Below, one piece after another: positions 25,101 to 25,291 of a stretch of 34,768 bases of DNA; the stretch's first letter is position 1, and each line of letters opens with the position of its first letter. This DNA comes from a virus: the IMG/VR virus record IMGVR_UViG_3300025012_000214, positions 1-34,768 of that record. One strand, written 5' to 3'. The position numbers were made by a program, and so were the translations under genes. Below the pieces are notes generated by a model, which made no database searches, was not told where the DNA came from, and worked only from the letters and a program-made list of their open reading frames with translations.

Positions 25101-25129
25101 TTGACACCGCAATGAAGGGGATGTATATT
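25101..25129 (+). promoter_or_regulatory. Second early/middle promoter, sigma70 consensus
   Basis: TTGACA (25101-25106), 17-base spacer, TATATT (25124-25129). Start of transcription would be about 25136. The next gene starts at 25292, leaving a leader of roughly 155 bases with strong structure. Confidence 0.85.
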
Positions 25130-25150
25130 ATGTCTAATTCTCGAATGTCA

Positions 25151-25181
25151 GGCGGCAACCGCCCCGGAGCGCGGTGTTTTT
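25151..25181 (+). promoter_or_regulatory. Possible attenuator: two mutually exclusive hairpins
   Basis: GGCGG-CAA-CCGCC (25151-25163) and ACCGC...GCGGT (25158-25175) share the bases 25158-25162, so only one can form. The second is followed by G then TTTTT (25177-25181), as in an intrinsic terminator. The first would act as anti-terminator or vice versa. Confidence 0.45.
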
Positions 25182-25185
25182 ATAG

Positions 25186-25275
25186 GTGGACTTCGGAGCG
25201 GAGAATCTGTATACCGCGAGGTATACGGCAGCCCCTGACGGCTGGAGAAATTCTCTGCTCCCAAGTCCACTTTTT
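25186..25275 (+). ncRNA. Three-way-junction RNA ending in U-tract
   Basis: A long closing stem (GTGGACTT with AAGTCCAC, then 12 bp GGAGCGGAGAAT with ATTCTCTGCTCC, one C-C mismatch between) carries two hairpins. These are GTATACC-GCGA-GGTATAC (25209-25226) and CAGCC/GGCTG (25229-25244). TTTTTG follows at 25271. This is either a free small RNA from the promoter at 25101 or a terminator-type leader controlling the replication gene. The fold is visible in the sequence; the role is inference. Confidence 0.7.
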
Positions 25276-25291
25276 GTTTGTGGGATTCTGA

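Follow-up and report, generated by a model that had tools for sequence, protein, structure and literature searches.

Transcription attenuators carry alternative, mutually exclusive leader hairpins before a terminator and a gene. In phage lambda, the origin sits inside gene O and is activated when transcription passes over it. The lambdoid late promoter PR' is followed by the terminator tR', which is read through with Q, as set out in part of PMC6606751, and the lambda RNA OOP is antisense to cII, according to a portion of PMC12197685. Elements that recall these systems are found together in the window (the whole stretch of DNA that was analysed), a linear virus record from IMG/VR, 34,768 bases long, of a phage known solely from environmental DNA. 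The left part of the record contains head and tail genes, and the right part contains early genes, including those for an Erf-like annealing protein and Gp157. The features of the locus are as follows.

20292 to 20320, + strand: the other 11/12 promoter of 15001-34768, before the early genes (consensus scan)
25101 to 25129, + strand: sigma70-type promoter TTGACA-N17-TATATT, 11/12 consensus
25136 to 25152, + strand: 5' leader stretch AAUUCUCGAAUGUCAGG, which complements the P3 loop CCUGAC as well as the joiner GAGAA (shuffle tests)
25151 to 25163, + strand: leader hairpin GGCGG-CAA-CCGCC, −8.0 kcal/mol, present in the minimum-energy fold
25158 to 25181, + strand: overlapping weak terminator-like hairpin ACCGC-N8-GCGGT, then GTTTTT, −7.5 kcal/mol
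25184 to 25272, + strand: three-way junction RNA (93-base element 25183-25275), minimum energy −54.0 kcal/mol
25184-25193 with 25263-25272, + strand: P1 block 1, 10 bp
25195-25206 with 25250-25261, + strand: P1 block 2, 12 bp, with one C.C mismatch between the P1 blocks
25207-25228, + strand: P2, 9 bp, GCGA loop
25229-25244, + strand: P3, 5 bp, loop CCUGAC
25245-25249, + strand: joiner GAGAA, unpaired in the predicted fold
25271 to 25280, + strand: U tract TTTTTGTTTG, abutting the P1 stem directly in an intrinsic-terminator layout
25292 to 26380, + strand: 362-aa gene with DUF1376 (Pfam, 2e-13) and DnaA_N (4.2e-06) domains
25681 to 25732, + strand: four iteron-like TATAACG repeats (25681, 25703, 25714, and 25726), candidate origin

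The promoter, which a first-pass annotation of this DNA had described as a consensus one, is confirmed and lies about 50 bases ahead of the junction; by rule of thumb, an RNA start near 25136 is expected from its position. Within 15001-34768, 11/12 promoter sites occur only twice (20292 and 25101), both on the + strand and both before the junction, and a third is located at 2572-2601, within 1-15000. Transcripts from the promoter at 20292-20320 would meet the junction too. Downstream of the element, the scan for this one consensus, which leaves room for other promoter types, returned four promoter-like sites on the + strand, all of them 9/12. Because the strong + strand promoters are found only before the junction, transcripts of the replication gene must pass the junction, unless other promoter types are used. 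An exact repeat of 17 bases, CCGCAATGAAGGGGATG, is present at 21625-21641 and 25107-25123, and its second copy makes up the entire promoter spacer.

The RNA that follows the leader is predicted to fold into a three-way junction, and the 90-base branched RNA described in the first-pass annotation is borne out as a 93-base element. Its minimum energy compares with −25.7 ± 3.3 kcal/mol in 200 shuffles (z −8.63), none of which folds as well, and the fold of the 140-base RNA gives a z of −5.66. When 100-base segments were taken from both strands at steps of 10, with the energy regressed on G+C, the junction segment at 25181 ranked first in the record; a coarser scan of the + strand, in 90-base segments at intervals of 30 bases and with 40 shuffles per segment, split the element and assigned it a z of only −3.36. 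The lowest z of the 90-base scan on the + strand (−6.59) belongs to 34111-34200. The GCGA-capped arm had been read correctly and corresponds to P2, and the closing stem, put at 20 bp, is indeed a long P1 helix, but its two blocks add up to 22 bp, two of them contributed by the T tract (20 if these are left out).

A helix of about 22 bp has the length that is cut by RNase III, and the 10 + 12 bp of P1 with their single mismatch would suit a structured 5' leader that is cut by this enzyme, or that affects mRNA stability or translation, and that contains no terminator. The weak Shine–Dalgarno match of the replication gene (−4.0 kcal/mol, with 8 of 35 other listed starts weaker) and the pairing of the leader with the stretch just 5' of the start codon, found when the fold is extended to 25291, point in the same direction. 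However, this pairing is short and its duplex energy of −8.5 kcal/mol is a raw value, and the abutting U tract would be superfluous for such a role, which we regard as quite unlikely.

The stable P1 stem stands directly against the U-rich TTTTTGTTTG, which is the layout of an intrinsic (Rho-independent) terminator. A search of the window for perfect 8-bp arms that abut TTTTT (within 120 bases) gives one site on the + strand and none on the other, against 0.045 per strand expected from shuffles. The TTTTT end that had been noted before the replication gene is therefore present, but the gap from there to the ATG is 16 bases, not 17. The junction and the U tract at its end thus make a strong claim in terms of anatomy. 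The possibility of an unregulated element, either a constitutive terminator that serves as an insulator or an insertion, decayed or there by chance, beside an unrelated promoter, draws on the fact that conservation could not be demonstrated; the fold statistics, the exact layout, and the necessity of transcribing the downstream arm all argue against it, and it is scarcely credible.

The strong structure just downstream of an early promoter is also reminiscent of putL of HK022, as described in part of PMC9378689, and would be consistent with a put-type, cis-acting antitermination RNA, the nascent fold of which would bind RNA polymerase so that later terminators are passed. In the same partial account (PMC9378689), put RNAs are about 70 nt long and comprise two stem-loops, whereas the window contains a 93-base three-way junction and then a U tract, and a put-type function is very unlikely.

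Two mutually exclusive hairpins had been proposed for the leader. Both exist, and, having six bases in common (25151-25163 and 25158-25175), they overlap and cannot form together; their energies are almost equal (−8.0 versus −7.5 kcal/mol), with the terminator-like hairpin slightly worse. The weak part of the proposal is the first terminator, as the 46-base leader fold is no better than its own shuffles (z +0.59), and this combination of a leader hairpin and a T tract is a weak claim. Two further stretches of the leader match parts of the junction: GUCAGG is exactly complementary to the P3 loop CCUGAC, and UUCUC, located 5' of GUCAGG, to the joiner GAGAA, which is unpaired. This complementarity was spotted post hoc, after looking at the sequence; when the 47-base leader was shuffled 5000 times, the loop complement appeared in 33 cases, and the loop complement together with the ordered joiner complement in none. 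The energy of the leader duplex is equalled by 102 of 5000 shuffles of a 25-base leader and by 595 of 5000 shuffles of the 47-base leader, as well as by 43 (25-base) and 130 (47-base) of 3156 other segments of the window, and by energy the switch pairing is only modestly above chance.

Minimum-energy folds of growing transcripts place the leader:P3 form first at ends 25240-25260 and the junction form first from 25270 onward, and, in the full transcript, the junction outcompetes the leader:P3 form. This predicted change, computed from a single sequence, fits a delay or a switch.

The 59-codon frame at 25112-25291, which ends in a TGA just before the ATG of the replication gene, may encode a leader peptide, a reading that was considered and set aside. 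The first three ATGs of this frame precede the expected RNA start, and the fourth (25145) falls after it. Openness over 59 codons is common: 107 of 2000 shuffles are open too, and so are 1531 of the 4942 frames of 59 codons that were sampled across the window.

The promoter, the fold, the abutting U tract, the weakness (9/12) of the promoter-like sites downstream, the fold change in growing transcripts, the + strand bias, the repeats in the replication gene, and the similar layout in Azospirillum phage Cd were counted as points for an attenuator, that is, a promoter-proximal conditional terminator that heads the replication arm and has an RNA of about 140 bases as its default product; we give this reading roughly an even chance. 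RNA polymerase would start near 25136 and make the leader, which could pair with the P3 loop and the joiner until the 3' strand of P1 is transcribed. Closure of P1 beside the U tract would then lead most polymerases to stop near 25275-25279, releasing the RNA of about 140 bases. A dead-end stop would silence the replication arm, and so the stop, if real, would have to be leaky or regulated; we infer that the DUF1376/DnaA_N gene and the later genes would depend on read-through, either by leakage or with the aid of a phage or host factor. The scan of 27 distinct reading frames, 12 of which were compared with both Pfam and PHROGs, turned up no antiterminator or Q-like family. Read-through would also take transcription across the candidate origin in the gene, and the gate would thereby control initiator supply and origin transcription together.

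The first-pass annotation had left two alternatives, an attenuator and a free RNA with a length of about 140 bases, and the anatomy fits both and rules out neither; the attenuator is preferred because no further strong promoter appears to serve the downstream arm. A phage small RNA of about 140 bases that stands alone and works in trans, with mRNAs of the phage or the host or else a protein as its target and with read-through being incidental, would account for the strong promoter of its own and the terminator-like end of its own, and phage small RNAs (OOP, PreS, and VpdS) are known from the part of PMC12197685 that lists them. On the other hand, the unpaired stretches are short, and the replication arm would be left without a strong promoter of its own. 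Duplexes with the 57 start regions of the window reach −12.4 kcal/mol for the leader (at 2625) and −19.0 for P3 and the joiner (at 15345), and these raw energies are uninformative; they do not count against the small RNA. The stand-alone RNA is unlikely, albeit worth serious consideration; under the attenuator reading, the gate would yield such a free RNA as a by-product or as a second product.

The gene that follows, which had been called a replication initiator, is supported as such at the family level. Its product carries a DUF1376 domain at residues 8-94 and a DnaA_N match, and is similar to the PHROG families "primosomal protein" (4.6e-16) and "replisome organizer"; it is probably a primosome or replication-initiation protein, judging from these family matches, and iteron-like repeats lie within the gene. 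The stretch with the TATAACG repeats encodes the linker after the DUF1376 domain. TATAACG is the densest repeated 7-mer in any 80-base stretch of the record, with four copies in 52 bases, a number reached by none of 2000 local shuffles; outside the gene, the whole record contains a single + strand copy at 13454 and a single copy on the other strand at 6878. The G+C content drops to 0.385 at 25600-25799, around the repeats. The gene combines short repeated sites with A+T-rich DNA, as do phage origins whose iterons lie in the gene for the initiator, which suggests, by analogy, a lambda-like candidate origin within the replication gene.

This candidate bears on the idea that the palindrome acts as DNA, in which case a large imperfect palindrome would serve as an origin, a primosome-loading hairpin, or a protein-binding site. 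The element adjoins a primosome-like gene and folds on both strands, with −54.0 kcal/mol and 36 pairs (3 G.U) on the + strand and −49.9 kcal/mol and 33 pairs (1 G.U) on the − strand. However, the better candidate for an origin, with four TATAACG copies in A+T-rich DNA, lies 400 bases downstream in the gene, the orientation of the promoter and the U tract is the one that an RNA would require, and the three + strand G.U pairs, a small number, would be mismatches on the other strand. Since the repeats are located in the gene, a DNA-level role becomes less likely, and we consider it highly improbable; for the same reason, the attenuator becomes slightly more likely.

The surroundings of other DUF1376 genes were surveyed at 15 other loci, of which L108 and L109 were dropped, leaving 13 correctly placed loci (L240 with just 259 bases upstream). 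PF07120 is present in 4 of 44 records, the window included, and distant DUF1376 relatives with 29-38% identity were found at seven places in six of 398 Pseudomonadota genomes. None of the 13 loci has a promoter of at least 10/12 within 300 bases upstream, and the layout is therefore not general for the gene family. The folds at L245 (z −5.49) and L240 (z −3.95) contain no junction of the kind found in the window, and in four of the five named phages examined (L016-L020) the DUF1376 gene directly abuts the preceding gene. The nearest layout is that of the fifth, Azospirillum phage Cd, in which a 9/12 promoter-like site (1346-1374) lies between the divergent gene 14 and the DUF1376 gene 15, and the same intergenic stretch contains a 7-pair hairpin followed by the T-rich GATTTTTGCT (1426-1443). 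The scan there gave two overlapping promoter-like matches, with 0.2 expected, and two terminator-like matches, one per strand, with 0.3 expected. A terminator ahead of a DUF1376 gene may therefore not be exclusive to the phage of the window; among the loci examined, a three-way junction before the gene was found in this phage alone.

Relatives of the RNA were sought in several sequence sets. Rfam 15 gave no match in the window at the gathering score, and over the element four sub-threshold matches, the best with 20 bits against 96. A covariance model, R1, was built from one sequence and could therefore overlook distant relatives. In a set of 54 records from viruses and phages, one of them the window, R1 found only the window's own element, the − strand of the junction palindrome scoring 41.5 bits, and it found no match in 11 other genomes or records, in 127 loci, or, under strict filters, in 398 Pseudomonadota genomes, a phylum picked blind. 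As R1 rests on one sequence, these empty searches do not prove the RNA to be unique; they gave no homologue in which compensatory changes could be seen. The 18-base loop pattern with one N is absent from viral_contigs; the exact pattern occurs in nine stretches of genome_contigs, close to the estimated chance number, none of which folds into the junction, and a looser pattern occurs in at least 119 stretches, with no R1 match among the 119 listed. No DNA match to 24900-26400 was found in the phages collection. In the literature, no small RNA of a phage was found that combines a three-way junction with a terminator and a replication gene, in a search that could miss a motif from structured-RNA catalogues outside Rfam.

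The proteins of the phage likewise lead to few relatives. The replication and Erf proteins have none in viral_contigs, and the capsid protein has one identical contig of 5.6 kb (L002) and four at 41-42% there. An alignment search with the capsid protein returned 95 relatives and was narrowed to the best 80; apart from the contig at 100%, their identity is at most 47%, and R1 was run on the records behind 43 of these best 80. Four relatives found through Gp157 and four found through DUF5131 are likewise without an R1 match. In one capsid relative (L023, 41% capsid identity), the inverted repeats GGTATGGAA/TTCCATACC lie beside a very stable hairpin at about 2945-3230.

Several other structured or repeated stretches were observed in the record. 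ARAGORN at default settings finds no tRNA or tmRNA gene in the window. Just upstream of the promoter, 24969-25046 has a cloverleaf-like, four-arm fold with a T-arm-like GGTTCTAATCC and shares sequence with the 3' end of the reading frame upstream; the fold of 24966-25050 has an energy of −40.7 kcal/mol (z −3.17), and the tRNA-Sec model, for which the gathering score is 47, gives 24969-25046 a score of 17.2 bits. Its closing arms, AGCGCGG...CCGCGCT, are common to two 89-base copies at 23584-23672 and 28172-28260, which are 93% identical and are both also readable as parts of small proteins. Directly 5' of the first copy, 23502-23582 is tRNA-like, with a TTCGACT loop and a 3' ACCA; it is reported by ARAGORN at relaxed thresholds only, among 25 matches, and its fold is no better than that of shuffles (72 of 200). 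At 20840-20918, within the 3' end of a reading frame for an HNH protein, the conserved part of the type-P5 twister ribozyme is matched with 24.2 and 25.4 bits, short of the 37.6 bits set as its gathering score; no outer-helix partner is seen, and the match may be due to chance. A perfect tandem repeat of two 33-base units is present at 28895-28960, in a 238-codon reading frame.

Overall, the element is a non-random orphan RNA, plausibly of a known kind, and its mechanism is a proposal. In a more elaborate version of the attenuator, the leader would form a pseudoknot with the P3 loop and the joiner of the terminator, and a signal (a protein, a second RNA, or the replication state) would pick between stop and read-through; read-through would produce the initiator and transcribe the origin, and the released RNA of about 140 bases would act in trans. 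We consider this full RNA switch clearly unlikely. If the proposed gate is real, the phage times its replication by a large branched RNA terminator ahead of a gene that perhaps contains both initiator and origin, the RNA architecture is one without a match in Rfam or the searched sequence sets, and the locus provides a compact test case for whether a three-way junction can be terminator and switch alike.

Compared with known systems, the locus resembles classical attenuators in having predicted, mutually exclusive leader structures ahead of a terminator-like element and a gene; unlike known attenuators, its RNA matches no Rfam riboswitch or leader. As in lambda gene O, iteron-like repeats reside in the linker of a likely initiator gene, whereas the protein families differ and, in the window, a terminator-like RNA directly precedes the gene. 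The locus shares with lambda OOP a short promoter-driven RNA encoded by a phage genome, but an antisense partner such as that of OOP was not identified for the RNA of the window. The likeness to HK022 put, as far as the partial description in PMC9378689 extends, is looser than that to lambdoid PR'/tR' and consists in a structured nascent RNA near an early phage promoter; in place of the two stem-loops of put, in about 70 nt, the window has its 93-base three-way junction, and the element falls outside the definition of put given there. With lambdoid PR'/tR', as described in part of PMC6606751, it has in common the layout of a promoter, a short transcribed stretch, an intrinsic terminator, and an operon reached via read-through. 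The lambdoid system further comprises a Q-binding element in the promoter, a −10-like pause element, and a Q gene, and no Q-like family was found among the 27 reading frames scanned in the window. The likeness is one of layout, and, unlike PR'/tR', the element in the window would gate the replication arm through a terminator formed by a three-way junction.
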